A DNA stretch of 64,000 nucleotides, taken from Eubacterium limosum. GTDB lineage: Bacteria > Bacillota > Clostridia > Eubacteriales > Eubacteriaceae. The notes under the pieces are model-generated. The model was given only the letters and a program-made list of their open reading frames with translations, searched no databases and was not told the DNA's origin. This document shows positions 427 to 28,148 of this stretch, one piece after another. Position 1 is the first letter of the stretch. Each line of letters begins with the position of its first letter. Where the stretch lies: contig NZ_CP019962.1 in assembly GCF_000807675.2 (NCBI RefSeq), forward strand, positions 1,240,001 through 1,304,000, read 5' to 3'. The position numbers and the translations under genes are program-made.

Positions 427-924
<498 letters not shown>

Positions 925-925
925 A

Positions 926-1067
926 GGCCGAATCCAAATTCTGCAAGAATTTGGCAGCGCACTGTTCAATGAGCCGTCAGGCGAAGGTGCGCGGCAATAA
1001 GGCTAACGCAAATTTTTTGAAAATTTTCTATCGGATATTCAAGATTTTTGAAATAATTTGTGCTCCA
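926..1067 (+). repeat. Structured intra-operon repeat, copy 1 (rpsG-fusA spacer)
   Basis: Most divergent of five copies. It starts just after the rpsG stop. Helix 1 is CCAAATTC/GAATTTGG; helix 2 is GCGCAC/GTGCGC enclosing the small hairpin GCC-gtca-GGC; a 3' domain is closed by GCAAATT/AATTTGT. Helix 2 differs from the other copies (GGACGCA/TGCGTCC) on both sides, so pairing is kept. There is no U-run, so it is not an ordinary terminator. The class is unidentified. Confidence 0.8.
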
Positions 1068-1121
1068 TATGATGCGTGATCGTTTGTTTAGTATTCAAAT
1101 TAAAATTGCGAGGAAAAATCT

Positions 1122-3197
1122 GTGCCAAGAGAATATAGTTTAGAGAACACAAGAAATATCGGTATTATGGCGCATATTGACGCAGGAAAAACCACTACTA
1201 CTGAAAGAATCCTTTACTATTCTGGTAAAATCCATAAAATCGGCGAAACCCATGATGGTGGCGCGCAGATGGACTGGATGGAACAGGAACAGGAAAGAGG
1301 TATCACCATTACCTCAGCTGCTACAACATGTCATTGGAAAGGCAACCGTATCAACATTATCGATACTCCTGGCCACGTTGACTTTACCGTTGAAGTAGAA
1401 CGTTCTTTAAGAGTTCTTGACGGTTCTGTAGCGGTATTCTGTGCCAAGGGTGGTGTTGAACCTCAGTCCGAAACCGTATGGCGTCAGGCTGACCAGTACC
1501 ATGTACCGAGAATGGCTTATATTAATAAAATGGACATCACCGGTGCGGACTTCTACCATGCGGTAGACATGATCCGTGACCGTCTGGGCGCAAACCCAGT
1601 ATGTATCCAGCTGCCAATCGGTAAGGAAAGTGATTTTATTGGTATCATTGACCTGCTTACCATGAAGGCTGAAATCTATAAGGATGACTTAGGTGAAGAA
1701 ATTGAAATCACCGATATTCCTGACGACATGAAAGAAGAAGCTGAAAGCTATCGCGATAAGATGCTTGAAGCCCTTTCTGAAGTAGATGAAAACCTGATGG
1801 AAAAATACCTGGAAGGTGAAGAAATCACCATCGAGGAAATCAAGGCAGCCATCCGTAAGGGAACCTGTAACGTAGAATTGATCGCAGTAACCTGCGGCTC
1901 TTCCTATAAAAACAAGGGTGTTCAGATGATGCTGGATGCTGTTGTTGACTATATGCCGTCACCGCTTGACGTACCTGCTATCAAGGGTACAAATCCGGAA
2001 ACGGACGAAGAAGATGAAAGAAAACCAAGCGATGAAGAACCATTCTCCGCTTTAGCTTTCAAGATTATGACAGACCCATATGTTGGTAAACTGGCATTTA
2101 TGCGTGTTTACTCCGGTACTGCAGAAGCAGGCTCCTATGTTCGTAATACCACAAAAGGTAAGAGAGAACGTTTTGGCCGTATCCTGCAGATGCATGCGAA
2201 CCACCGTGAAGAAATCTCCAAGGTTTACACCGGTGATATCGTAGCTGCCGTTGGTCTGAAAGATACCACTACCGGGGACACCCTGTCTGATCCGGATCAC
2301 CCGATCATTTTGGAATCCATGGTATTCCCTGAACCGGTTATCGATGTTGCCATCGAGCCTAAGACAAAAGCCGGCCAGGAAAAAATGAGTGTTGCACTCC
2401 AGAAACTGGCAGAAGAAGATCCTACTTTCCGTACACATACCGATGAAGAAACCGGCCAGACCATTATCTCTGGTATGGGTGAGCTTCACCTGGATATCAT
2501 CATTGACCGTATGCTGCGCGAATTCAAGGTAGAAGCCAACATTGGACAGCCTCAGGTAGCTTACAGAGAAAAGATCACCAAAACCGTTGACGCAGAAGGC
2601 AAATTTGCCCGTCAGTCCGGTGGTCGTGGTCAGTATGGTCACTGTCTCATCACACTTACACCGCTGGAACCAGGCGAAGGTTATATTTTTGAAAATAAAA
2701 CCGTTGGTGGTTCAATTCCGAAGGAATACATCGGACCAATTGACCAGGGTATTCAGGAAGCAATGCAGAATGGTGTCTTAGCCGGTTATCCGGTTATCGA
2801 CTTTAAAGCAACTGTTTATGACGGTTCTTACCATGAAGTTGACTCCTCAGAAATGGCCTTCAAGGTTGCTGGTTCTATGGCTTTCAAAAACGGTATGCGC
2901 AAAGCAGATCCGGTTATTATGGAACCAATGTTCAAACTGGAAGTTGTTATTCCAGAAGAATATATGGGCGATGTTATGGGGGATATTAACTCCAGACGTG
3001 GCCGTGTAGAAGGTATGGAAGCCCGCAACGGCGCTCAGGTTATCAATGGTATGGTGCCGCTGGCAGAAATGTTCGGTTATGCAACATCCCTGAGAAGTAA
3101 AACCCAGGGCCGTGGCGTTTACACCATGCAGTTCTCACACTACGAACCCGTACCAAAGAGCGTTTCAGAAAAAATCATCGAAGGACGCACTAAATAA
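1122..3197 (+). CDS. fusA: Elongation factor G
   Basis: Ribosomal translocase GTPase, 691 residues, normal length. It starts with GTG ([20 protein letters not shown]) after a GCGAGG ribosome-binding site. The P-loop [13 protein letters not shown] sits near residues 17-29; the switch segment [11 protein letters not shown], the DTPGHVDF G3 motif and the NKMD G4 motif follow; the C-terminal domains IV and V are intact ([16 protein letters not shown]). The gene lies between rpsG and tuf and is followed by two tandem copies of the structured repeat. No oddity in the protein itself. Confidence 0.98.
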
Positions 3198-3198
3198 A

Positions 3199-3338
3199 GC
3201 TGAGTCCGGTTTTTGAAGAAAACCGGCAGGACACAGATTTATGAGCCGAAAGGCGAATGCGTCCGATAACGAAGCGAACGCAGATGATGAGGAAATCATC
3301 CGATAAGGATGAAGGGATTTCCGAAGCATCTGTGAACT
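3199..3338 (+). repeat. Structured intra-operon repeat, copy 2 (after fusA)
   Basis: Begins one base after the fusA stop. Helix 1 is CCGGTTTT/AAAACCGG, which replaces the AT-rich CCAAATTC/GAATTTGG of other copies on both strands. Helix 2 is GGACACA/TGCGTCC with an A-C mismatch; the inner hairpin GCC-gaaa-GGC has a GNRA loop; the 3' domain has GGAAATC/GATTTCC and ATCC/GGAT pairings. Confidence 0.8.
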
Positions 3339-3340
3339 TT

Positions 3341-3480
3341 CCGAGTCCGGTTTTTGAAGAAAACCGGCAGGGCGCAGATCTATGAGCCGAAAGGCGAATG
3401 CGTCCGATAACGAAGCGAACGCAGATGATGAGGAAATCATCCGATAAGGATGAAGGGATTTCCGAAGCATCTGTGAACCT
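3341..3480 (+). repeat. Structured intra-operon repeat, copy 3 (tandem with copy 2)
   Basis: Near-identical to the preceding copy with a period of 141 bp. The few differences include helix 2, which here reads GGGCGCA and so forms a G-U pair instead of the A-C mismatch of copy 2. This points to a recent tandem duplication inside the fusA-tuf spacer. Confidence 0.8.
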
Positions 3481-3496
3481 TATAAAAAAACAAACG

Positions 3497-3522
3497 GTCT
3501 GCCGGATCGTTACGGCAGACCC
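3497..3522 (+). other. Perfect hairpin in fusA-tuf spacer
   Basis: GGTCTGCCG and CGGCAGACC form a perfect 9-bp stem with an 8-base loop, upstream of tuf. It is followed by CCCATTAAA rather than a U-run, so it is more likely an mRNA processing or stability hairpin than a full terminator (inference). Confidence 0.55.
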
Positions 3523-3557
3523 CATTAAATATTTAAAATAATAATAGGAGAAATAAA

Positions 3558-4751
3558 ATGGCTAAGGAAAAATTTGAAAGATCCAAACCACATGTTAACA
3601 TTGGTACCATCGGTCACGTTGACCACGGTAAAACAACATTAACCGCTGCAATCACCACCGTATTAAACAAACGTTTCGGAACCGGTGAAGCTGTAGCTTT
3701 CGACAACATCGATAAAGCACCAGAAGAAAGAGAACGTGGCATCACCATCTCAACCGCCCACGTTGAATATGAAACCGACGCACGCCACTACGCGCACGTT
3801 GACTGCCCGGGCCATGCCGACTACGTTAAAAACATGATCACCGGCGCAGCCCAGATGGACGGCGCGATCTTAGTTGTATCCGCAGCCGACGGCCCAATGC
3901 CGCAGACCCGTGAACACATCCTGTTAAGCCGCCAGGTAGGCGTACCTTACATCATCGTATTCTTAAACAAAGCCGACATGGTAGACGATGAAGAATTATT
4001 AGAACTGGTCGAAATGGAAGTTCGTGAACTGTTAGACGAATACGAATTCCCAGGAGATGACACACCAATCGTCGTAGGATCCGCTTTAAAAGCATTAGAA
4101 GATCCAGACGGCGAATGGGGCGACAAGATCGTTGAACTGATGAAAGAAGTTGACGCATACATCCCAGAACCAGAACGCGACACCGACAAACCATTCTTAA
4201 TGCCAGTGGAAGACGTATTCTCCATCACCGGCCGTGGTACCGTAGCAACCGGTAGAGTTGAACGCGGGATCGTACACGTAGGGGACGAAGTAGAAATCGT
4301 TGGGATCCACGAAATTAAGAAAACCGTTGTAACCGGGATTGAAATGTTCCGTAAGCTGTTAGATGAAGGCCGTTCAGGCGACAACATCGGCGCGTTACTG
4401 CGTGGGATCGACCGTACCATGATCGAACGTGGACAGGTACTGGCAAAACCAGGCTCCATCCACCCACACACCCACTTCACCGCCCAGGTATACGTTCTGA
4501 CCAAAGAAGAAGGCGGCCGTCATACCCCATTCTTCGATGGCTACAGACCACAGTTCTACTTCAGAACAACCGACGTAACCGGTAATATCAAACTGCCAGA
4601 AGGCGTTGAAATGGTTATGCCAGGGGACAACGTAGAAATGGAAATCACATTGATCACCCCAATCGCGATCGAAGAAGGTTTACGTTTCGCGATCCGTGAA
4701 GGCGGCCGTACCGTTGGTTCCGGAGCCGTTGCTAAGATTATCACAGACTGA
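3558..4751 (+). CDS. tuf: Elongation factor Tu
   Basis: GTPase that delivers aminoacyl-tRNA to the ribosome; 397 residues, normal length. It starts at ATG ([16 protein letters not shown]) after [15 protein letters not shown] (about residues 18-26), [16 protein letters not shown] and the SALKALE G5 motif are all present, as are domains II and III ([26 protein letters not shown]). Codon choice is narrow, as expected for a very highly expressed gene. It is the last gene of the str operon and is followed by repeat copy 4 and then a strong terminator. Confidence 0.98.
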
Positions 4752-4752
4752 C

Positions 4753-4892
4753 GCTGAGTCCAAATTTCTACGAAATTTGGTAGGACGCAGTGGTTGAGCC
4801 GTGAGGCGAATGCGTCTGGCAACGAAGCTAATGCAAATTTTTCAAAAATCATCCGAAAGGATGAACAGGATTTTTGAAATAATTTGTAAACC
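4753..4892 (+). repeat. Structured intra-operon repeat, copy 4 (after tuf)
   Basis: Starts just after the tuf stop codon. Helix 1 is CCAAATTTC/GAAATTTGG, helix 2 GGACGCA/TGCGTCT (G-U tolerated), inner hairpin GCC-gtga-GGC (GNRA loop). The 3' domain contains a perfect 10-bp stem TTCAAAAATC/GATTTTTGAA around ATCC-gaaa-GGAT. In copies 2, 3 and 5 this stem is GGAAATC/GATTTCC, again changed on both sides. Confidence 0.82.
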
Positions 4893-4915
4893 AATTTAGA
4901 AATTAATTAAAAATT

Positions 4916-4953
4916 AAAAGGATCGGGCTTATCGCTAAGCCTGATCCTTTTTT
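4916..4953 (+). terminator. Rho-independent terminator of the str operon
   Basis: AAAAGGATCGGGCTTA pairs with TAAGCCTGATCCTTTT (one G-U) around a 4-base loop and runs into TTTTTT. Strong canonical terminator after tuf and repeat copy 4. Confidence 0.9.
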
Positions 4954-5011
4954 ATTTGCAAATGCGTTTTTGGGATTTCGGGATATCTTTTGTAATTAAA
5001 AACAAAAAAAT

Positions 5012-5045
5012 AAAAAGCAACGGGCTCCGATACCCATTGCCTTTT
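5012..5045 (-). terminator. Terminator for the minus-strand GDPD operon
   Basis: Read on the minus strand, AAAAGGCAATGGG pairs with CCCGTTGCTTTT and is followed by a T-rich run. It lies about 110 bp beyond the stop of the phosphodiesterase gene, where convergent transcription from tuf also ends. Confidence 0.8.
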
Positions 5046-5153
5046 ATATAAATTAGGAATGAAAAGAAAAAGGGGAGATGTTTATCTCTCAAATACTATT
5101 CTAATCGTTCAACCTTTAGAATATCTTTAATTCCCTATAGCTTAATAAAAAAT

Positions 5154-7019
5154 TTACATACCGAATACAATTTGTTCGAGTGTTTTTCTGAAAATATCCT
5201 GGCTGTTAATGCCATTTTCTTTTACCAGCTCCTTAGCCAGAGGCACATCGTCAGTGATGATGTTATCCACATTAAGGTCAATCATATCATCGATGAGCTC
5301 CTCATTGTCCACTGTCCAGACGTAAATATCCTTGTTTTGCCGGTGGACAGCATCGACAAGCTTTTTGTTGACAAAGGTGGCTTCAATGCTGAAAGCATCT
5401 ACCGGAAGGGTATCAATGTCACCGTAGGCAATGGCGCTGATGTAGGCAGTGCGGACGCTGGGGTCGATTTGTTTTACCCGCTCAATAGTGGTATAATCCA
5501 GCGAAGCGAGAATACACTCCGTCTTAAAATCCTGCTTTTGAATCACATCCACAGCTTTTTCCACGAATTCGTGATCGTGGGAGGTGGGCTTAAGTTCGAT
5601 GTTCATCTTTACCTTGCCCCGGCAGGTCTCAATGGCTTCGTCTAAAGTCATGAGACGCTCACCGCTGAACTCGGGGGAGAACCAGCTGCCAATGTCAATG
5701 TCTTTAAGATCATCGTAATTGCTGTTCCAGATGTCAATGTCCTGTCCGGAAATCCGTTTGATATTGTTGTCATGGGAGACCACCAGAACGCCATCTTTGG
5801 TCTCCGCAATATCAATTTCCACATAATCGGCGTTGTTGGCAATGGCAGCCTCCAGTGCAGCCCGGGTATTTTCCGGAGCCTCGGTGGAATTACCGCGGTG
5901 CCCGGTGACCTGGGGACCGCTCAGCAGGATATTGGCAGTGTCAACGTCAAAAGCCAGTATAATCTGTGCGCTTTTAACGCCGATGGAAATGACCAGCAGA
6001 ATACAGGCAGCAATGACCAGATGTTTTTTCTTAGGCGCAAGGGACATGTTGTTGTTGACCAGCGGTATATCTTCCTGCACGGCGTTGTCGGCCCGAGAGT
6101 ATGCGTCATAAAGCTTTGAGATAAAAGCAAAATTTAAAGGGGTGACAACTGCGTCCAGAATGCTTGAACCTAAAAGAAAAATAATGGAGACCACACTGAT
6201 CAAAAGCGTAAACCAGAAAGAAGGATCGCTCATTCCCTGGATATGCTCAATAATCAAAGCGGCCGGGATAACGCAGACCACTAAAAATACCAGTGCTACA
6301 AGCAGGCTGATGGCCACAAGAAACAGATTCCAGAGAAAAAACCGCCACAGGGTGTGGAAGAAACGTCCTTTAATCCGTTTTGCGCTTTGACGCCGGGCGT
6401 CTTTAAAGGATGAGTCCTTTAGAACAAAGATGTTAAAAACAAAGAGCCATCGGATGACCAGGATGGCCAGAGAGACAACCAGAGCCAGAAAGATAACCGA
6501 TAAAAGGGCAGAGTCGGCAATATAGTCCGAGATAAATCCTGGAATGGTGAGTTCTCTAATAAAATTGGAGGTGACCATCATGTTCATAAACGGGATAATG
6601 AGGATCAGGAAAAGAATCATCAGGAAATTTTTAGGTTTAAAAATCGCCAGAGCCCGTTTAAATCCGCTCCGCATCAATGGAATGATCTGAACCTTCCGCC
6701 CGGCAAGGCTTTCGTGAAAGCAGACAGCCAGCGTGGTAAACTCGATGAGGGTATAAAAGGCCAGAATGAGCAGCAGCACAAATCCCACAATCCAGAGCAT
6801 TGGATGGTTGAGCAGCTCGCTGATATTGGAGCCTGTAATATAGAAAAGTCCTGCGGCCGAGAGTGAATGCTTTAGAACAAAACCGGTCGCAGGAAAGATA
6901 ATCGTGCTTCCGCAGAAAGAGTATAGGATTTCGAAAATGACCAGGGGCCAGAAATTAAAGCGAAATAACCCAAAGGTCTCTCTTGAGAAGCGTTTATATT
7001 GAATTTTTTGTTTTTTCAT
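5154..7019 (-). CDS. Membrane-anchored glycerophosphodiester phosphodiesterase
   Basis: Predicted to hydrolyse glycerophosphodiesters to glycerol-3-phosphate and an alcohol, at the membrane. The N-terminal ~350 residues form a multi-pass membrane domain (GPDPase_memb type, repeated hydrophobic segments). A GDPD domain follows, opening with TGHRGNSTEAPENT near residue 370 and containing the metal-binding EIDIAETKDGVLVVSHD and the NIELK strand. The chosen start gives MKKQKIQYKRFSRETFG, 621 residues, 13 bases beyond the regulator's stop and preceded by GGGAG at good spacing; an in-frame upstream start would overlap the regulator. It is last in a minus-strand operon with the GntR regulator and a corrinoid protein. 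Its physiological substrate cannot be told from sequence. Confidence 0.9.
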   Translation of the reverse strand: MKKQKIQYKRFSRETFGLFRFNFWPLVIFEILYSFCGSTIIFPATGFVLKHSLSAAGLFYITGSNISELLNHPMLWIVGFVLLLILAFYTLIEFTTLAVCFHESLAGRKVQIIPLMRSGFKRALAIFKPKNFLMILFLILIIPFMNMMVTSNFIRELTIPGFISDYIADSALLSVIFLALVVSLAILVIRWLFVFNIFVLKDSSFKDARRQSAKRIKGRFFHTLWRFFLWNLFLVAISLLVALVFLVVCVIPAALIIEHIQGMSDPSFWFTLLISVVSIIFLLGSSILDAVVTPLNFAFISKLYDAYSRADNAVQEDIPLVNNNMSLAPKKKHLVIAACILLVISIGVKSAQIILAFDVDTANILLSGPQVTGHRGNSTEAPENTRAALEAAIANNADYVEIDIAETKDGVLVVSHDNNIKRISGQDIDIWNSNYDDLKDIDIGSWFSPEFSGERLMTLDEAIETCRGKVKMNIELKPTSHDHEFVEKAVDVIQKQDFKTECILASLDYTTIERVKQIDPSVRTAYISAIAYGDIDTLPVDAFSIEATFVNKKLVDAVHRQNKDIYVWTVDNEELIDDMIDLNVDNIITDDVPLAKELVKENGINSQDIFRKTLEQIVFGM

Positions 7020-7032
7020 AAAACCGCTCCCG

Positions 7033-7737
7033 TTAATCGAAGGAAGCAACCGCTTCGAGACCTGCATCTTCACCTGCCAGGTACATCATCCCCCAGCCGA
7101 TGGGCTTGTCCTTTTCGTCCAGAAGCTTTTCTTCAACAACCAACAGAGGCATTCCCACAGGGATCTCAAGATTTCTGGCGGTTTCGTCCTCTGCGATGGC
7201 GGCCCGGATTTTAAGCTTCTTGGTCATGGCAAAAATCGAGTTTTTCTTTGCTACCATTTCCGGGAAGGTTGCGTAGCGGATTTCCTTTTCGACGATTGGA
7301 ATCCCACGATAGTAGGGAATGTACTTAATGTCGTAGGCAGTTGGAAAGCCGTCCTTTAAAAAGATGCGTTTTACCACAATGACATGCTTGGTCTCGGGAA
7401 TTTCCAGATTAAAGCCGACCTCATAGCTGGGCTTGACAACGTTCACCTCAATGAGGCGGACTTCATCGCCGCGCTCATTGCCTGGCGCCATCTCGTTGTA
7501 GTGGAGGATATACTGGTCCAGATCCGGCTCACAGACATAATTGCCCTTGCCGGGAATCGAATAGATGTAACCCTCATTGACGAGTACGGCCAGACCCTTG
7601 CGCACTGTCATCCGGCTGACGTTAAATTCCTCGCAGAGAAGGTTCTCTGACTGGATGGCGTCCCCGGGCTCAAGCTCCTGGCTGGTTATTTTATTTTTTA
7701 TCGCTTCGACAATTTTAATATATTCAGGTGCACCCAT
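7033..7737 (-). CDS. GntR-family (HutC/UTRA) transcriptional regulator
   Basis: DNA-binding regulator of 234 residues. An N-terminal winged helix-turn-helix (about residues 8-72, including SENLLCEEFNVSRMTVRKGL) is followed by a UTRA ligand-binding domain (about 90-230) ending in the family-typical strand PLLVVEEKLLDEKDKPIGWG. It lies 3 bases after the corrinoid protein gene and upstream of the membrane phosphodiesterase, so the three genes form one operon. The inverted repeat TTGTGT-tc-ACACAA in the operon's 5' region (8398-8411) is the most likely binding site (inference). The effector is unknown; a methylated amine or a phosphodiester breakdown product are guesses only. Confidence 0.9.
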   Translation of the reverse strand: MGAPEYIKIVEAIKNKITSQELEPGDAIQSENLLCEEFNVSRMTVRKGLAVLVNEGYIYSIPGKGNYVCEPDLDQYILHYNEMAPGNERGDEVRLIEVNVVKPSYEVGFNLEIPETKHVIVVKRIFLKDGFPTAYDIKYIPYYRGIPIVEKEIRYATFPEMVAKKNSIFAMTKKLKIRAAIAEDETARNLEIPVGMPLLVVEEKLLDEKDKPIGWGMMYLAGEDAGLEAVASFD

Positions 7738-7740
7738 GAC

Positions 7741-8382
7741 TTACTTTTTCTCCTGTATCCATTGTTTGCATATTTCCACCGCTTTGGTTACGTCCTTTGT
7801 GCCGTAATCTGCGCCCACACTGAGATGCGTTACGCCGTCATCCACGCATGCGCCGCCGATCATCACACGTATCTGATCTCTTATGCCGAGATCTTCGAGT
7901 CCATCGGTGATTTTTTTCATTTCGATGGTTGTTTCCTGCTGCATTCCACTGAGGCCGATAATATCAGGCTTGTGCTCCTGTACCTTTTCAAGGATAGTGG
8001 AGGAAGGAACGTCAATGCCGATGTCGATGACTTCAAAGCCTGCTGTGGTTGCAAAGGAGGCAAAAATATTTTTTCCGATATCGTGGCAGTCTCCATAAAC
8101 AGAAGCGACGACAATTTTGCCCATTCTGGGCACTGACGGCATGGCATACAGCGCTTTCAGCTCATCGAGATCCATAACCTCCTGAAAGATAATGCCGGCA
8201 AAAATAAGGTCTGCAATGAAATAGTCACATTTCTCATAATGGTCGCCGACCCGTTCCATGCCGATGCGCAGCCAGTCCAAAATCTGAAGTGGGGTAAAAC
8301 CCTTGCGTACGGCAATTTTTACCAGCTCCAGCGTCCGCTGTTCATACAACCCTTCTACTGATCTTACAATACTCTCTTTCAT
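7741..8382 (-). CDS. Corrinoid (cobalamin-binding) methyl-carrier protein
   Basis: 213-residue protein of the MtbC/MttC/MtqC type that carries a methyl group on cobalt between a substrate methyltransferase and an acceptor methyltransferase. A helical cap domain (about 1-88) is followed by a Rossmann-like B12 domain with DxHxxG at D98, H100 and G103 (GDCHDIGKNIF); H100 is the expected lower axial cobalt ligand. A SGMQQET turn and the GGACV phosphate loop follow. It is first in the operon with the GntR regulator and the membrane phosphodiesterase. No methyltransferase partner is encoded nearby. The cap sequence (KGFTPLQILDWLRIGMERVG) is divergent from the second corrinoid protein in the window. 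Confidence 0.9.
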   Translation of the reverse strand: MKESIVRSVEGLYEQRTLELVKIAVRKGFTPLQILDWLRIGMERVGDHYEKCDYFIADLIFAGIIFQEVMDLDELKALYAMPSVPRMGKIVVASVYGDCHDIGKNIFASFATTAGFEVIDIGIDVPSSTILEKVQEHKPDIIGLSGMQQETTIEMKKITDGLEDLGIRDQIRVMIGGACVDDGVTHLSVGADYGTKDVTKAVEICKQWIQEKK

Positions 8383-8397
8383 GATTCTTTACCTAAC

Positions 8398-8431
8398 TTG
8401 TGTTCACACAAAGAATTATTCAAAAATTATA
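8398..8431 (-). promoter_or_regulatory. Promoter -10 and candidate GntR operator
   Basis: On the minus strand a TATAAT box (8426-8431) has a plausible TTCACA -35 about 16 bases upstream. The inverted repeat TTGTGT-tc-ACACAA (8398-8411) lies just downstream, about where transcription would start. Its place in front of an operon that encodes a GntR/UTRA repressor makes it a good autoregulatory operator candidate. Confidence 0.6.
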
Positions 8432-8571
8432 CCATAAAAAGATTGTTTGTGAAAAAATTATCTTAATAAACTTAAAAAAATTCAAACAATCTGAAATCGT
8501 TTTGTCTTTATTATACCATACTTATACTAACCTGTATATACAAATCTAGACATAAGACAAAAAAAGACATT

Positions 8572-8601
8572 AAAAAAGACACCAATACTGGTGTCTTTTT
8601 A
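8572..8601 (-). terminator. Terminator after corrinoid protein gene
   Basis: AAAAAAGACACCA-atac-TGGTGTCTTTTT is a perfect stem with T-runs on both strands. It follows the minus-strand corrinoid gene ending at 8629 and separates it from the next minus-strand operon. Confidence 0.88.
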
Positions 8602-8628
8602 TATTTGATCTTACTTTACGGATTTGTC

Positions 8629-9261
8629 TCAGCCAACCCATGCCTGGCAGATCTTAACGCCTTCAGCTGCATTTGTTGTGAAGTCGTCAGCGCCAACATA
8701 TTCGCAGGCTTCTTTAGTAACAGGGTTACCACCGATGATTAATTTAGAGTCAACGCCAGCTGCTTTCAGAGCGTCTGAAGTTTCTTTCATAGAGTCGATA
8801 GCCAGGGTTAAAACGCCGCTGATACCGATGATGTCAGGTTTGATTTCTTTAGCTTTTTCAACGAATGTATCGATTGCTACGTCAATACCTAAGTCAGTAA
8901 CCTGGAAGCCAGCTGCTTCAGCCATGCTTCTGAAGATGTTTTTACCGATGTCATGTAAATCGCCGTGAGCGGTACCAATTAAGATGGTGCCAGCAACTGC
9001 GGTGTCGCCGCTGCCTAATACTGGTTTTAATACGTTGATTGCTTCAGTTAATAATTCGCCTGCGAAAATTAAGTCCCCAACAAAATATTCGCCTTCTTCG
9101 AATAAATCACCAACAACAGCCATACCAGCCTGACAAGCTGCAACTGCTTCTTCAGCTTCTGCTTCAGTAGGATTTGTAGCTACGAAATCATTTAAGATTT
9201 CCATTACATCGTCTTCTTCTAAGTCTCCAACTGCCTGTGTTAAATTTTTCCAATCTGCCAT
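8629..9261 (-). CDS. Corrinoid methyl-carrier protein (MtqC/MtbC-like)
   Basis: 210 residues, typical of corrinoid proteins in methylamine and quaternary-amine demethylation systems. The cap domain is followed by the B12 domain with D101, H103 and G106 (GDLHDIGKNIF), SGVLTLAIDSM and the GGNPV loop. I chose the MADWKNLTQAVGDLEEDD start, which gives the family length; a longer in-frame start upstream has no good ribosome-binding site. It is transcribed alone from a strong minus-strand promoter and ended by its own terminator, suggesting high independent expression. In acetogens such proteins serve many MttB-family methyltransferases (established knowledge); none is nearby, so it may be shared by methyltransferases encoded elsewhere (inference). 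Confidence 0.92.
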   Translation of the reverse strand: MADWKNLTQAVGDLEEDDVMEILNDFVATNPTEAEAEEAVAACQAGMAVVGDLFEEGEYFVGDLIFAGELLTEAINVLKPVLGSGDTAVAGTILIGTAHGDLHDIGKNIFRSMAEAAGFQVTDLGIDVAIDTFVEKAKEIKPDIIGISGVLTLAIDSMKETSDALKAAGVDSKLIIGGNPVTKEACEYVGADDFTTNAAEGVKICQAWVG

Positions 9262-9309
9262 TTTAAAATACCATCCCTTCATTTTTTGAATAAATAATTT
9301 TTCAGTAAG

Positions 9310-9370
9310 CACATGTGTGTACATGTGTTGTTTGTGATTATATAATACTCTCTTTTGAATCCGTTGTCAA
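9310..9370 (-). promoter_or_regulatory. Strong promoter plus 5'-UTR inverted repeat of the corrinoid gene
   Basis: On the minus strand TTGACA (9365-9370), a 17-base spacer and TATTAT (9342-9347) form a consensus vegetative promoter. Just downstream, CACATGT-gtgt-ACATGTG (9310-9327) is an inverted repeat that could act as operator or mRNA 5' hairpin. Confidence 0.75.
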
Positions 9371-9489
9371 GAAAACGCTTTCGATTTTTTGCTCAAAAAT
9401 GGCAAAAAACAAAAATTTATCTGTTTCGAAGTATGTGCAGGAGGAATTACACTAATTTACATGAAAAAAGAGAAGTTTTCTTAAGAAAG

Positions 9490-9558
9490 CACCTCCCGAA
9501 ATCCCGAAAACACCTTTAAAATAATCAGGTAAAAGGGTTTTGGGATTCCGGGAGGTGT
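9490..9558. repeat. Hairpin of the CCCGAAATCCCGAAAA repeat family
   Basis: CACCTCCCGAAATCCCGAAA at the left pairs imperfectly with TTTTGGGATTCCGGGAGGTG at the right around a ~28-base loop. Neither strand has a strong T-run directly after it, so terminator function is weak at best. It is one of about thirteen sites of the same motif in the window. Confidence 0.7.
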
Positions 9559-9559
9559 A

Positions 9560-9899
9560 TGGGTGGGGAATAGATATTTAGCGGGGGGACCGTCAAAAAA
9601 TTTTTCTGTGGTAGGCCGCAAATCGTGGCACTCTTATTTCGCAGCTTCGATGGCTCTTTGAAAAATCAACAGTAATTGACAGGTAATGAGACCATAGGCG
9701 CAGCTCAATAAAGTACCACGCTCTGCGGCGCGAGTGGATGAAAAATTCTTTGACTCCGCAGTGTTTTGTGATGATGGTGGCTTATTGGTTTTCGAGCCGT
9801 CTGGATGCTTTTAAAAACACTGAACTTCAAGTATTCAATTTTTTGAGGAGACGGCATATTGCTGAAAATCTCCCGTCGGTCTTAAGCTGCAAGCCCAAT
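9560..9899. other. Unassigned 340-bp intergenic stretch downstream of the FAH gene
   Basis: I see no convincing gene. A plus-strand open frame starting at 9738 is mostly the shadow of the FAH-family gene. The composition is unlike the AT-rich spacers around it, and the run GACCGTCAAAAAATTTTT followed by non-coding sequence resembles the end of a decayed insertion sequence, but I cannot name a family. Confidence 0.3.
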
Positions 9900-10793
9900 C
9901 TACTGTATATGATTTCTGAGGATACCGATCTTTTCGATTTCGGCTTCGACGATGTCGCCGTGTTTCAGGAAAGCGGGCGGGTCCTGGGCCAGACCAACGC
10001 CGGCTGGGGTTCCGGTCAGGATGATATCGCCGGGGTACAGGGTAACGCCCTGAGACAGGTCGCTGATGATGGTGGGGATATCAAAGATCATGTGGCTGGT
10101 GGTGGATTCCTGGCGGGTCTCACCATTGACGCGGCAGCGGATGCCGAGATTCAGGGGAAGGGGCAGAGCGCTTTTGTAGACAATGGCCGGGCCGAGGGGG
10201 CAGAAGGTGTCCAAGGATTTGCCCTTATACCACTGAGAATGCTTTTTCTGGAGGTCTCTGGCGGTGATGTCATTGGCGACCGTATAGCCGAAAATATAGT
10301 CTTCAGCGTCCGATTTGGCGATATCTGAGCCCTCCTTACCAATGATGACTGCCAGCTCGGCTTCATAATCAATCTGTTTGGTGGCGTTGGCGTGGGACAG
10401 GATTACCGAATCGGGGCCGGTAACGGATGAGGAAAGCTTTGAGAAGTAAATAGGGCTTTCCGGAACCGCGCCGAGGCCGGGAATATTTTTAATCTCCTGG
10501 ACATGCTCGGTGTAGTTTTTGCCTAGACAGAAAATATTACGCTCAGGCTTGGGAATGGGGGCCAGCAGCTTGACAGAGTTCAGGTTAATACCCATATTGG
10601 GATTGTCGGCCATGGCTTTTTCGATCGAAGCGATCAGAGCATCATCAGCCAGACGGATAAAATCCGTCATCTGTTCAGGCAGTTTAACACCAAGCACCTT
10701 ACCGATGGTGGTAACGGGCACTACGCGTTTGAAATCCGCGGTGAGAATTCCTGCTTCGCTGAAAGATGCGTATTGATAGGTGACAAAATACAT
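9900..10793 (-). CDS. Fumarylacetoacetate hydrolase (FAH) family protein
   Basis: 297-residue enzyme of the FAH superfamily, which hydrolyses or decarboxylates 2-oxo acid-type C-C bonds with a divalent metal. The family fold is clear: FCLGKNYTEHVQE, PIYFSKLSSSVTGP, the metal-binding DYEAELAVIIGK, YTVANDITARDLQ, QWYKGKSLDTFCPLGP and the C-terminal TGTPAGVG. The N-terminal ~60 residues carry the short domain common in bacterial members. It starts at ATG (MYFVTYQYASF) behind a CGGAGG site. It is single and transcribed opposite to the pyr operon. Close relatives act as acylpyruvases, oxaloacetate tautomerases or decarboxylases; the substrate here cannot be assigned. Confidence 0.9.
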   Translation of the reverse strand: MYFVTYQYASFSEAGILTADFKRVVPVTTIGKVLGVKLPEQMTDFIRLADDALIASIEKAMADNPNMGINLNSVKLLAPIPKPERNIFCLGKNYTEHVQEIKNIPGLGAVPESPIYFSKLSSSVTGPDSVILSHANATKQIDYEAELAVIIGKEGSDIAKSDAEDYIFGYTVANDITARDLQKKHSQWYKGKSLDTFCPLGPAIVYKSALPLPLNLGIRCRVNGETRQESTTSHMIFDIPTIISDLSQGVTLYPGDIILTGTPAGVGLAQDPPAFLKHGDIVEAEIEKIGILRNHIQ

Positions 10794-10875
10794 TTGAATT
10801 ACCTCCGTTCATTTCATTTGCTTAATCTTATCATAATTTCTTAGTAAAGGCCAATATTTTGAACCTTTAAGATAT

Positions 10876-11035
10876 TGACTTTTTTGAGGTTATACTTTAT
10901 CATTAATTTAATTAAACTCTTAACAAAAGGGCAGAGGAAACCCCTGTTAAAGATGACCACGACCTTAGAGTATTATAGTGCATAAATATTGCGTGAAACG
11001 CCCTTTTAACAGTTTGAAAAGGTGTTTTTTTTTGC
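10876..11035 (+). promoter_or_regulatory. Attenuator leader of the pyrimidine operon
   Basis: A weak promoter (TTGACT at 10876, TATCAT near 10898) precedes a leader that can fold two ways. A 5' hairpin pairs TTAACA (10920-10925) with TGTTAA and GGG with CCC, with CAGAGG in the loop side. AAAAGGGC (10925-10932) can instead pair with GCCCTTTT (11000-11007), which is the left arm of a terminator ending in TTTTTTTTT (to 11035). This is the anti-antiterminator/antiterminator/terminator layout of PyrR-type attenuation; the purine-rich loop resembles a PyrR-binding loop but is not an exact consensus match. No pyrR is in the window. Confidence 0.7.
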
Positions 11036-11079
11036 AAAAATGCATGTCGTGGACGAATTTTAAGCCAAGGAGGCAAGAG

Positions 11080-12006
11080 ATGCTAAAAGGAAGACATTTA
11101 ATAGAACCCGGTGACTTTACCATAGAAGAATTAGAATCCATTTTTGGGCTGGCTGATAATATTATTGCAAATCAGGATGATTATATTGACGTTTGCAAGG
11201 GAAAATTATTAGCCAGCCTTTTTTACGAACCATCCACCCGTACACGGTTCAGCTTTGAGTCGGCCATGCTGCGCTTAGGCGGCAAGGTCATTGGATTTGA
11301 CAACCCTGCCAACTCGTCAGTATCCAAGGGCGAAAGCATTGCGGATACCATCCGCACCGTCGGCTGCTACGCCGATATCGCGGTGATCCGCCACCCGAGA
11401 GAAGGGACCGCCAAGCTGGTATCTAAGGCAGCCTGCGATATGCCCATCATCAACGCTGGTGACGGCGGCCATGAACACCCCACTCAGACCTTGACAGACC
11501 TGCTGACCATCCGCCATGAACGCGGCAGCTGCGACGGCCATGTGGTGGGCCTCTGCGGGGACCTGCTTTTTGGACGGACCATCCACTCGCTGGTCAAAAC
11601 CCTGAACCGCTACAAGGGCAACAAATTTGTGTTTATCTCGCCAAAGGAACTGAAAATGCCAGAATTTTTCCTGAGCATGCTGGAACCCGGCTCTTATATT
11701 GAAACAGACAGCCTGGACGATGTCATCGGGGATCTGGATATCCTGTACATGTCCCGCGTGCAGCGCGAGCGCTTTGTCAGCGAGGAAGAATATCTGCGTT
11801 TGAAGGACTACTACATTTTAGATAAAAAGAAAATGAAAAAAGCCAAGGAAGACATGATCGTCATGCACCCGCTGCCGCGTGTCAATGAGATTGCCGTGGA
11901 GGTGGACAATGATCCGAGAGCGGTTTATTTCAAACAGGCAAAATACGGCATGTATGTGCGTATGGCCCTGATTTCAAAATTACTGGGGGTAGACATCAAT
12001 GATTAA
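11080..12006 (+). CDS. pyrB: Aspartate carbamoyltransferase, catalytic chain
   Basis: Catalyses the committed step of pyrimidine synthesis, carbamoyl phosphate plus aspartate to carbamoylaspartate. The start at 11080 gives [13 protein letters not shown] and 308 residues, the normal length, behind AAGGAGG. An upstream in-frame GTG at 10978 would read through the attenuator and is rejected. The carbamoyl-phosphate loop [10 protein letters not shown] spans residues 51-60; [11 protein letters not shown] and the HPLPRVNEI loop are intact. It is followed by pyrI with an 8-base overlap, so this is the PyrB-PyrI type allosteric enzyme. Transcription is probably controlled by the attenuator upstream. 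Confidence 0.97.
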
Positions 12007-12430
12007 TGTATCAAAACTGAAAAAAGGAATTATTATCGACCACATCGAATCCGGCCACGGCTTTGAAATTTACAAGGAGCTGCACCTCAACGAAATCGAC
12101 GATGTTGTCGTGCTGATGAAAAATGTCCCCAGCAAAAAAATGGGGCAGAAAGACCTGATCAAAATTGAAACCGACCTGGAGCTCGATATGAATGTTCTAG
12201 GGCTTATCGACCCCAACGTCACCATTAATTTTGTGAACAACGGCGAGCTTGTGAGCAAGGTGCAGCTGACCCTGCCCACCCGGGTAACCGGCATCATGAA
12301 ATGTAAAAATCCGCGCTGCATCAGCCAGTACGAAGATGTGGGCGATATTGACTTCTACCTGGTAGACGCAGAAAAGAAATTATACCGCTGCGAATACTGC
12401 GATTCTTATACGACGTTTATTGAGAAGTGA
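11999..12430 (+). CDS. pyrI: Aspartate carbamoyltransferase, regulatory chain
   Basis: 143-residue nucleotide-binding regulatory subunit that gives PyrB its feedback control by CTP/ATP. An N-terminal allosteric domain is followed by a zinc domain with the four expected cysteines C102, C107, C131 and C134 (CKNPRC...CEYC). Its start overlaps the pyrB stop, so the subunits are translationally coupled. It is followed by the fifth copy of the structured repeat, not a terminator. Confidence 0.96.
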
Positions 12431-12431
12431 A

Positions 12432-12571
12432 GCTGAGTCCAAATTCTGAAAGAATTTGGCAGGACGCAGTTCTATGAGCCGTCAGGCGAATGCGTCCGGT
12501 AACGAAGCAAACGCAAATGATGAGGAAATCATCCTGAAAGGATAAAAAGATTTCCGAAGAATTTGTGATCC
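12432..12571 (+). repeat. Structured intra-operon repeat, copy 5 (pyrI-pyrC spacer)
   Basis: Starts one base after the pyrI stop. Helix 1 CCAAATTC/GAATTTGG, helix 2 GGACGCA/TGCGTCC, inner hairpin GCC-gtca-GGC, then GATGA-ggaaa-TCATC or the alternative GGAAATC/GATTTCC around ATCC-tgaa-AGGAT, closed by GCAAAT/ATTTGT. It shows that the element is not tied to translation genes but to operon spacers in general. Confidence 0.82.
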
Positions 12572-12595
12572 TTAAATAAAGGGGAAGGAACTACC

Positions 12596-13768
12596 ATGAA
12601 AACTTTAATTACAAATGTTGAAATCATCGACGCCACTGGCCGCAGGCCGGGGAAGGTGCTTATTGATGATGATGGTAAGATCAAAAAGGTTTATAAGGAA
12701 AAGGGACAGGTAAAGGCAGCGCACGACCGGGAAATCGACGGCCAGGGCAAGGTGCTGATGCCGGGCTTTATCGACATGCACTGTCACCTGCGCGATCCTG
12801 GACTTACCTATAAGGAAGACATGGAAACTGGCATGAAGGCAGCCCTGAAGGGCGGCTTTACCACGTTGGTAGCCATGGCCAATACCAAGCCGATCATGGA
12901 CAACGCAGAAGCTCTGAAGGCCAATATGGACAAAGCAGACGCCATGGGTCTCTGCGACCTGGTACAGGTTTGTGCCCTGACAAAAGATTTCAGCGAAGAC
13001 GACCTGGTGGATTTTGAGAGCACCCGGGAATACACGAATGTCTACTCCAACGACGGACACAACGTGGACAACGAAGGAACCATGAAAAAGGGGCTGGCGG
13101 CCTCCACCGAGTACAATTTTATTCTAGCCACCCACTGTGAGCCGGAAACCGAGACTGTGGAGCGGGACATCGCCCTTCTGCGAGAAACGCCAGGACACCT
13201 GCATGTGTGCCATATCAGCAAAAAGGATACCCTGGACGCCATCAAGGCCGCCAAAGCAGAAGGTCTGGACATTACCTGTGAGGTCACCCCGCACCATCTG
13301 TACGCCTCTGCCATGGAATATAAGGTACATCCGCCGTTCAGAAGCTATCCGGACCGCCGGGCTCTGATCGAGGGCGCCAGGGACGGCAGCATTGATATCT
13401 GCGGCACCGACCACGCCCCGCACAGCGACGAGGACAAGCTGAAAGGCGCACCGGGGATCAATAATTTTGAGACTGCCTTTGCCATGTACTACACTGTTTT
13501 TGAAGGCGCGGGCATCCCTGTAGAACGCCTGAGCCAGATGCTGAGCGAAGCACCGGCTGAGCGCATGGGGATAAAGGCCGGGCTGGTCAAGGAACGCTAC
13601 GCCGGCGACCTGGTTTTAGTGGATCTGGATGCCGAGGAGCGGGTAGATCCTAAGACTTTTATCTCAAAAAGCCACAACACTCCCTTTGGCAGAGAACTGC
13701 TCAAAGGCAAGGTGCTCATGACATTTAAAGGAGGAGAGATCGCATATGATAATGGATCGCTTGTATAA
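12596..13768 (+). CDS. pyrC: Dihydroorotase
   Basis: Zinc metalloenzyme that cyclises carbamoylaspartate to dihydroorotate. At 390 residues it is of the bacterial class I / AllB-like type. The metal-binding DMHCHLRDPG is at about residues 60-69 (H62, H64). TKPIMDN, THCEPE, CHISKKD and the catalytic-Asp segment CGTDHAPH follow in order. It starts at ATG after GGGGAAGG. Its end overlaps the start of pyrF by 23 bases, and the pyrF ribosome-binding site lies inside it. Confidence 0.96.
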   Translation: MKTLITNVEIIDATGRRPGKVLIDDDGKIKKVYKEKGQVKAAHDREIDGQGKVLMPGFIDMHCHLRDPGLTYKEDMETGMKAALKGGFTTLVAMANTKPIMDNAEALKANMDKADAMGLCDLVQVCALTKDFSEDDLVDFESTREYTNVYSNDGHNVDNEGTMKKGLAASTEYNFILATHCEPETETVERDIALLRETPGHLHVCHISKKDTLDAIKAAKAEGLDITCEVTPHHLYASAMEYKVHPPFRSYPDRRALIEGARDGSIDICGTDHAPHSDEDKLKGAPGINNFETAFAMYYTVFEGAGIPVERLSQMLSEAPAERMGIKAGLVKERYAGDLVLVDLDAEERVDPKTFISKSHNTPFGRELLKGKVLMTFKGGEIAYDNGSLV

Positions 13769-28041: not shown

Positions 28042-28050
28042 AGAATTGTT

Positions 28051-28137
28051 CAAAAGGCAAAGCGGTGCGAAAGCCCGTGGCGCAAAACTACAGGGTCTAC
28101 GTCGGGAGCTCCAGCCTGATATGACAGCCAGATGCCA
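28051..28137 (+). promoter_or_regulatory. c-di-GMP-I (GEMM) riboswitch aptamer
   Basis: The sequence has the conserved order of the GEMM-I class: AAGGCAAAGC, a GAAA tetraloop on the P2 side (GTGCGAAAGCCC), GGCGCAAAACTACAGGGTCT, then a P3 hairpin and the closing GCCAGATGCC, with GGCA pairing to TGCC. A terminator-like hairpin follows. It lies between a good promoter and the first pilin, so c-di-GMP should switch pilus operon transcription; whether it is an ON or OFF switch needs the expression platform to be tested. Confidence 0.88.
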
Positions 28138-28148
28138 AAAACGGTAGA

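Follow-up and report, generated by a model that had tools for sequence, protein, structure and literature searches.

The window analysed here, a 64,000-nucleotide stretch corresponding to bases 1240001-1304000 of the 4422837-base Eubacterium limosum chromosome, holds five copies of a folded element of about 140 nucleotides (nt), and the questions that these copies raise are how one repeat comes to be placed exactly at the end of units that differ so much from each other and what its fold does at such sites. On the second, the view towards which we lean, tentatively and from comparative sequence analysis, is that this structured repeat acts in cis, as folded RNA within transcripts, where it would form a boundary behind a functional unit. 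The five copies are members of a large family of structured elements with covarying helices that occurs in acetogens, namely in Eubacterium and most likely also in Acetobacterium. Rfam has no entry for this family, copies of which sit at the ends of core genes (tuf, fusA, rplJ, gyrB, dnaA, pgk and rny). If the stoichiometry of cistrons is indeed set by the element, this would matter for the engineering of these strains. The copies in the window are the following:

925 to 1068, + strand: copy 1, in the rpsG-fusA spacer, starting directly after the rpsG TAG (922-924); 112.8 bits
3197 to 3340, + strand: copy 2, in the fusA-tuf spacer, its first A being the last A of the fusA TAA; 131.8 bits
3338 to 3481, + strand: copy 3, in tandem directly behind copy 2, with no stop codon before it; 124.7 bits
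4751 to 4894, + strand: copy 4, after the tuf TGA (4749-4751) and ahead of a terminator at 4916-4951; 115.6 bits
12430 to 12573, + strand: copy 5, in the pyrI-pyrC spacer, its first A being the last A of the pyrI TGA; 146.1 bits

The names rpsG, fusA, tuf, pyrI and pyrC rest on gene order and on Pfam matches of the neighbouring genes (ribosomal S7, EF-G, EF-Tu, aspartate carbamoyltransferase with the PyrI chain, and amidohydrolase). An earlier, sequence-only reading of this DNA had described a five-copy element at 926, 3199, 3341, 4753 and 12432, placed right after stop codons inside operons. All five copies were recovered within 1-3 nt of those positions and share one fold, and the stem pairs quoted for them are present in the sequence. 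The link to stop codons holds for four copies (behind rpsG, fusA, tuf and pyrI) but not for that at 3341, which lies behind copy 2, and the placement inside operons fails for the copy at 4753, which is followed by the intrinsic terminator at 4916-4951 and then by a gene on the opposite strand (5154-7073). The element had also been said not to be a terminator, and we likewise rejected this identity: no T-run stands behind the copies themselves, and no + strand terminator lies inside the five. Copy 4 has an identical counterpart behind the second tuf gene of the genome.

The family is, however, much larger than five. A BLAST search of the genome that contains the window (hereafter, the home genome) with copy 5 returned 19 matches, and the covariance model R1, built on 17 copies from this genome, returned 51 matches with an E-value of at most 1, 49 of them below 0.01; a copy outside the training set, at 145723-145856, was detected with an E-value of 1.5e-25. 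By manual count, 11 tandem arrays are among these matches, each made up of two to four units. Under stricter filters, R1 found the element in at least 21 of 61 genomes of relatives (at least 21 of the 37 from the same family, spanning four genera) and, among the matches listed, in none of the 24 genomes from the order's other families; model R2 matched none of 397 other genomes of the phylum, a weak negative given that only 8 candidates were scored per genome. The best reading of these sequence matches is that the element is lineage-restricted, probably to this bacterial family. Judging by PyrI identities and named records, genus g3 of our comparison is most likely Acetobacterium. Alignment A3, drawn from 93 chosen sources, comprises 142 matches (135 distinct rows); 45 of these come from the home genome, copy 3 not among them, and the relatives' copies are part of the matches listed.

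The anatomy of the element, described on copy 5, is as follows:

12431 to 12573, + strand: helix P1, GCUGAGU/AACGAAGC, with tandem G.A mid-helix (fully paired in the other subtype)
After the P1 5' strand: hairpin P2 directly on P1, linker YA, P3 with an optional nested hairpin, linker GGYA, and the P1 3' strand
3' part: hairpin P4 (GCAAAU/AUUUGU) with an inner helix and a bulge, then the tail GAUCCUU

P1, P2 and P3 form a three-way junction, P4 is a separate 3' hairpin, and the 5' consensus of the element is A-N-G-C/T. The folding z-scores of the five window copies (-2.1, -5.0, -4.7, -4.5 and -4.7) are all below those of shuffled sequences. When 17 home copies were aligned by sequence, RNAalifold recovered 31 pairs, 20 of which show two-sided changes. 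In the 142-match alignment, which is fitted to the model, two-sided changes are found in all 31 pairs, 95.7% of the cells are paired compared to 71.7% after shuffling, and none of 500 shuffles reaches any of five measures; moreover, when all column pairs with a spacing of 4 or more are ranked, the 16 strongest belong to the structure without exception. A realignment by sequence only of 33 home copies with less than 85% identity gave a fold at -13.5, compared to a mean of -0.02 and a minimum of -1.25 in 200 column shuffles. The covariation over several helices that the sequence-only reading had claimed is thus borne out in a larger alignment and, as for the check proposed there, a covariance model searched against the genome, its relatives and Rfam yielded a set of copies that covary and no Rfam match.

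Further details concern mismatches and subtypes of the fold. The paired columns contain 163 G.T against 84 A.C combinations, an excess that speaks for the sense strand as the one that folds. The pairing of the lower P4 helix is interrupted by G.U or by C.A, and a potential switch between the tail and the P4 loop (GAUCCUU and AAGGAU) showed no covariation. P1 comes in the two forms noted above, and columns 6 and 7 covary with column 64 accordingly. The form with tandem G.A was found in 57 of 72 copies at TGA, TAA or TAG trinucleotides compared to 1 of 28 at CCA or T-runs and, when open frames and array-first copies alone were considered, in 45 of 47 compared to 1 of 17 in four Eubacterium genomes and in 4 of 9 compared to 1 of 11 in other genera, but in these counts orthologues are included repeatedly and some of the 'CCA' rows are copies from the 23S-5S interval and not from a tRNA end. 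Because, in addition, the subtype tracks subfamilies (12 changes on the tree compared to 26 when shuffled, with at least 3 forced), we draw no functional conclusion from the association of P1 subtype with place.

The position of the copies relative to upstream units is the second line of evidence. Among the 45 home matches in A3, 11 are internal to arrays and 34 come first in an array or stand alone; 22 of these 34 are flush with a stop codon (L086 being a doubtful member, with a longer gene that ends 147 bases upstream), at 7 a gene ends at some other point within 200 bases, and at 5 no gene end lies in that range. In the whole of A3 (142 matches), with orthologues counted separately, the array-first copies number 119, of which 55 are stop-flush. 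Stop codons and operon interiors, the sites named by the sequence-only reading, are not the only places: other copies lie at tRNA ends, behind T-runs and before terminators. A copy follows tRNA-Tyr with zero gap at L095, L102, L117, L060, L067, L140, L143 and L144 and with a one-base gap at L061, and follows tRNA-Asp with zero gap at L061 and with one base at L140 (twice), L142 and L147. Some copies stand behind a T-run that, by eye, resembles a leader terminator; at 2 of 12 loci scanned with Rfam (L093 and L106, from two genomes), a T-box leader ends 28 and 36 bases before the copy. One array, upstream of polA, lies behind a TATAAT that resembles a -10 box. For 19 copies, none or few of them stop-flush, the adjoining gene, tRNA or leader is of the same sense, which is a weak criterion, and L101 holds a weak match (26 bits) on the strand opposite a strong one. 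The upstream genes encode RlmH, GyrB, L10, DnaA, EutL, glycerol kinase, a second EF-G and RNase Y and, by sub-threshold or partial matches, GTP diphosphokinase, acyl-CoA dehydrogenase, phosphoglycerate kinase and a glutamate-synthase-like protein; those downstream, some of them partial matches, encode L7/L12, DnaN, GyrA, triosephosphate isomerase, TrpE, DNA polymerase I, an ABC-F protein and a P-II-like protein.

Furthermore, the fold is maintained where the element resides. In 31 orthologue comparisons, which cover 918 pairs that are paired in the home copy, 13 pairs are broken compared to 37.4 expected (minimum of 25 in 2000 simulations) when the same number of changes is placed at random with 65% transitions assumed; since several of the comparisons share a lineage, this minimum should not be taken as an exact probability. 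Conversely, 11 pairs are doubly changed and kept compared to 1.4 expected (maximum of 5). Single changes keep pairing in 23 cases and break it in 11, and double changes keep it in 11 and break it in 2, the simulated means being 18.5, 36.0, 1.4 and 1.4, respectively. Pairing is thus kept beyond chance between orthologous sites, which places the resident copies under structural selection. These comparisons are what was left of 37 after six were dropped as redundant, truncated or of doubtful orthology (the second relatives of L089, L080 and L090; L106; L082:4555 with L104:2214; and window:3197 with L125); in the full set, the change rate is 5.2% at paired and 12.3% at unpaired sites.

Individual sites are gained and lost. 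For 16 sites, chosen for the apparent lack of a counterpart in one or more sister genomes, the comparison shows that states differ rather than how often they do; 14 could be aligned (L042 had no match and L038 matched many places), and in up to three sisters these were variously filled, truncated or empty. At the pyrI-pyrC site, two sister Eubacterium genomes carry a copy and a third carries one with an internal deletion, and no copy was seen there in a fourth Eubacterium genome or in eight listed genomes of other genera. In the same spacer of two genus-g3 genomes (L181 and L180) lie unrelated longer sequences, one with inverted repeats, perhaps from other repeat families. At other sites, for example L082, L093 and L089, counterparts exist in all three sisters; the site behind EF-Tu is occupied in the home genome and in three genus-g3 genomes, and that behind tRNA-Tyr in both main genera. 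At the rny site (L097), two sisters, L209 (G003) and L196 (G002), keep only the 3' part, and the TAA of the gene now lies inside the remnant. In the rpsG-fusA spacer of three sisters (L153, L154 and L155), a short hairpin occupies the place that copy 1 has in the window; its outer pair is C-G in two of them and T-A in the other. In the polA array, the third copy (L089, home chromosome ~2631270-2631508) is apparently split by ~240 bases in the P4 loop, a stretch 78% alike to sequence elsewhere, in L133 of G002. Filled and empty spacers differ in further bases besides the element. Home copies outside arrays, among the 45 in A3, are at most 83% identical (median 60%), apart from the identical pair behind the two tuf genes, and this divergence speaks against recent spread; the units of some tandem arrays are near-identical. 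Variable presence and divergence together mark the element as old and slowly turning over.

Of the readings weighed here, a boundary that serves RNA trimming, processing or insulation seems to us the most likely. Under the boundary model, the fold would start at the end of the preceding unit, be it a coding sequence, a tRNA, a leader terminator or an earlier copy, and, being compact, would leave no bare RNA behind that unit. This would give 3'-5' trimming, endonucleases or Rho a defined point of action and let the two flanking cistrons meet separate fates. A ribosome that has reached the stop codon would be expected to cover the 5' strand of P1 while P2 stays free.

Several observations weigh against this model. 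The full set of 37 comparisons (1104 pairs) has 41 broken pairs, with 29 single changes kept and 33 broken, and 18 double changes kept and 8 broken. One pair supplies 64 of the 163 G.T combinations, and without two special pairs the excess is reduced to 97 against 46. Among the 34 first-in-array copies, 12 are not stop-flush. Copies of genus g3 beside the 23S gene are antisense to 23S; at L143, L144, L146, L147 and L148, the copy in the 16S-23S spacer is antisense to the rRNA operon, with its 5' end 3 bases from the 23S start. Behind both tuf genes, the copies stand ~20 bases ahead of an intrinsic terminator, where a boundary would add little. Finally, presence is variable, with sites empty or truncated in sister genomes and deletion remnants left behind, and the rpsG-fusA copy is absent at that site in all three other Eubacterium genomes compared; hence no single copy is shown to be required.

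Much of the evidence would also be expected of a non-autonomous mobile DNA element, similar to miniature inverted-repeat transposable elements (MITEs) or repetitive extragenic palindromic (REP) sequences, with a fold needed as single-stranded DNA for transposition and with copies kept only where harmless, without any host role; we consider this a real possibility, if not a probable one. The copies are dispersed, form the 11 tandem arrays with some near-identical units, differ in site between sister species, leave deletion remnants and are narrowly distributed, and covariation alone cannot separate RNA from single-stranded DNA. However, 34 copies showed no terminal inverted repeat (29% mean identity between the first 15 bases and the reverse complement of the last 15, where unrelated bases give 25%) and no target duplication of 7 bases or more, the matches between flanks, counted without a chance control, being 4-mers at 9 copies, 5-mers at 5, a 6-mer at 1 and 7-mers at 0; the L096 site would be compatible with a duplicated TGA. 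In the home genome, no version that bears a gene came to light, and all 49 matches of the 5'-domain model fall on R1 matches with 150 of 1433 candidates scored; model R3, of poor structure (10 pairs), was used solely to seek such copies. The search of this genome for Y1 transposases near copies gave matches only at 2573302-2573664 and 4032636-4032991, genes with internal stops whose nearest copies, at 2630853 and 4119085, are 57 kb and 86 kb away. The divergence of the non-array copies and the fold kept at resident sites also tell against mobility as the whole account, and the flush start is left unexplained by it. With 262 TGA in the intergenic DNA of the window (either strand) and 18 as stop codons, a random TGA target would seldom be a stop codon. 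The boundary model and mobility may both be true. The 'functional RNA' proposed by the sequence-only reading gains support from a fold under selection but has to be reconciled with a dispersed, tandem-forming and patchy repeat, so that functional RNA and mobile element are not exclusive alternatives.

Other explanations appear less probable. An antitermination or anti-polarity RNA, which would shield untranslated stretches from Rho or permit polymerase read-through, would suit sites where RNA lacks ribosome cover (after stops, in tRNA and rRNA operons, after leader terminators) and the copies upstream of trpE, polA and an ABC-F gene, but we regard it as unlikely given the terminator that closely follows the copies behind both tuf genes and the lack of a common downstream target among the genes seen. 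Less likely still, the element could enter as RNA at transcript 3' ends and be copied back into DNA, as a prokaryotic counterpart of short interspersed elements (SINEs). In favour of this route, the 5' junction directly abuts RNA ends of very different kinds, and the flush stop is TGA in 17 of 22 home copies compared to 16 of 50 other window genes; at 8 sites with an empty orthologue, the filled state has TGA where the empty one has TAA in 4 cases and TAG in 1, but the stop is the same in both states at the other 3 (TGA once, TAA twice). Antisense copies beside 23S rRNA genes and the copy behind TATAAT do not fit this SINE-like route, which assumes mRNA ends at stop codons and a reverse transcriptase that was not sought. 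Its assumed entry points would be the CCA ends of mature tRNAs, the U-runs of terminated leaders, mRNAs cleaved in the stop codon and the 3' end of the element itself. A combined version, in which RNA joined to transcript 3' ends is copied there, brings UGA as a new stop and is then kept as a cis-acting boundary, seems to us just as improbable. Chance similarity of intergenic hairpins or ordinary terminators is scarcely credible and, indeed, is refuted by the E-value of the untrained copy, by the covariation and by the missing T-runs.

Further identities were considered, and most of them were dropped. A selenocysteine or read-through element came to mind from a UGA ~8 nt before a helix and was rejected, with rpsG, fusA and other genes ending in TAG or TAA and many copies carrying a second in-frame stop. 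The flush 5' end makes a self-cleaving RNA of the hepatitis delta virus (HDV) or hammerhead type a candidate, for which neither an Rfam match nor, by eye, a core motif was found. An RNase P substrate and a kink-turn, considered from the 7-layer P1 with tandem G.A, found no support. A known RNA family was rejected with Rfam 15, which placed no family above its gathering score at the five copies, in agreement with the sequence-only reading, which could not name one; at E-values up to 10 over 900-12700, the only matches near a copy were weak ones at 4831-4958, covering the 3' part of copy 4 and the terminator. Elsewhere in the window, the one Rfam match above the cut-off is a c-di-GMP-I riboswitch aptamer at 28046-28139 (+ strand, 59.1 bits), and a further hairpin, GGTCTGCCGGATCGTTACGGCAGACC, lies at 3496-3521, shortly upstream of tuf, and is also present in two sister genomes.

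The portions available to us of the literature on bacterial MITEs, REP, HEARO and the E. limosum transcriptome contain no description of the element, and the word 'repeat' does not occur in the accessible part of the transcriptome paper (PMC5651825). One near likeness is to MITEs such as Correia/NEMIS, ERIC, YPAL and RUP which, according to PMC2229807, are 100-200 bp long, mainly intergenic, present in many copies and folded in transcripts; some of them have been proposed to set mRNA fate via RNase III. Most of these MITEs end in TA, carry inverted repeats at their termini and are flanked by target duplications, whereas the element is without an inverted repeat, consists of a three-way junction and a separate hairpin, and has a 5' end that is mostly flush with the preceding unit.

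As with REP, BIME and REPIN sequences and their RAYT genes, the repeats are extragenic, fold as a single strand and form composite arrangements; REPs, however, are palindromes of 20-40 bp with a GTAG/CGTC tag and RAYT genes, whereas the element is ~140 nt long and untagged. HEARO and other IS200/IS605-associated RNAs are similarly structured with a fixed short sequence at the 5' side, and HEARO inserts behind ATGA or GTGA; the element differs in having no gene-bearing copy in the home genome and no Rfam match. The put and EAR RNAs, which promote processive antitermination, are folded and placed in leaders and operons. Unlike these, the element occurs in many unrelated operons, at the ends of units and also directly before terminators.

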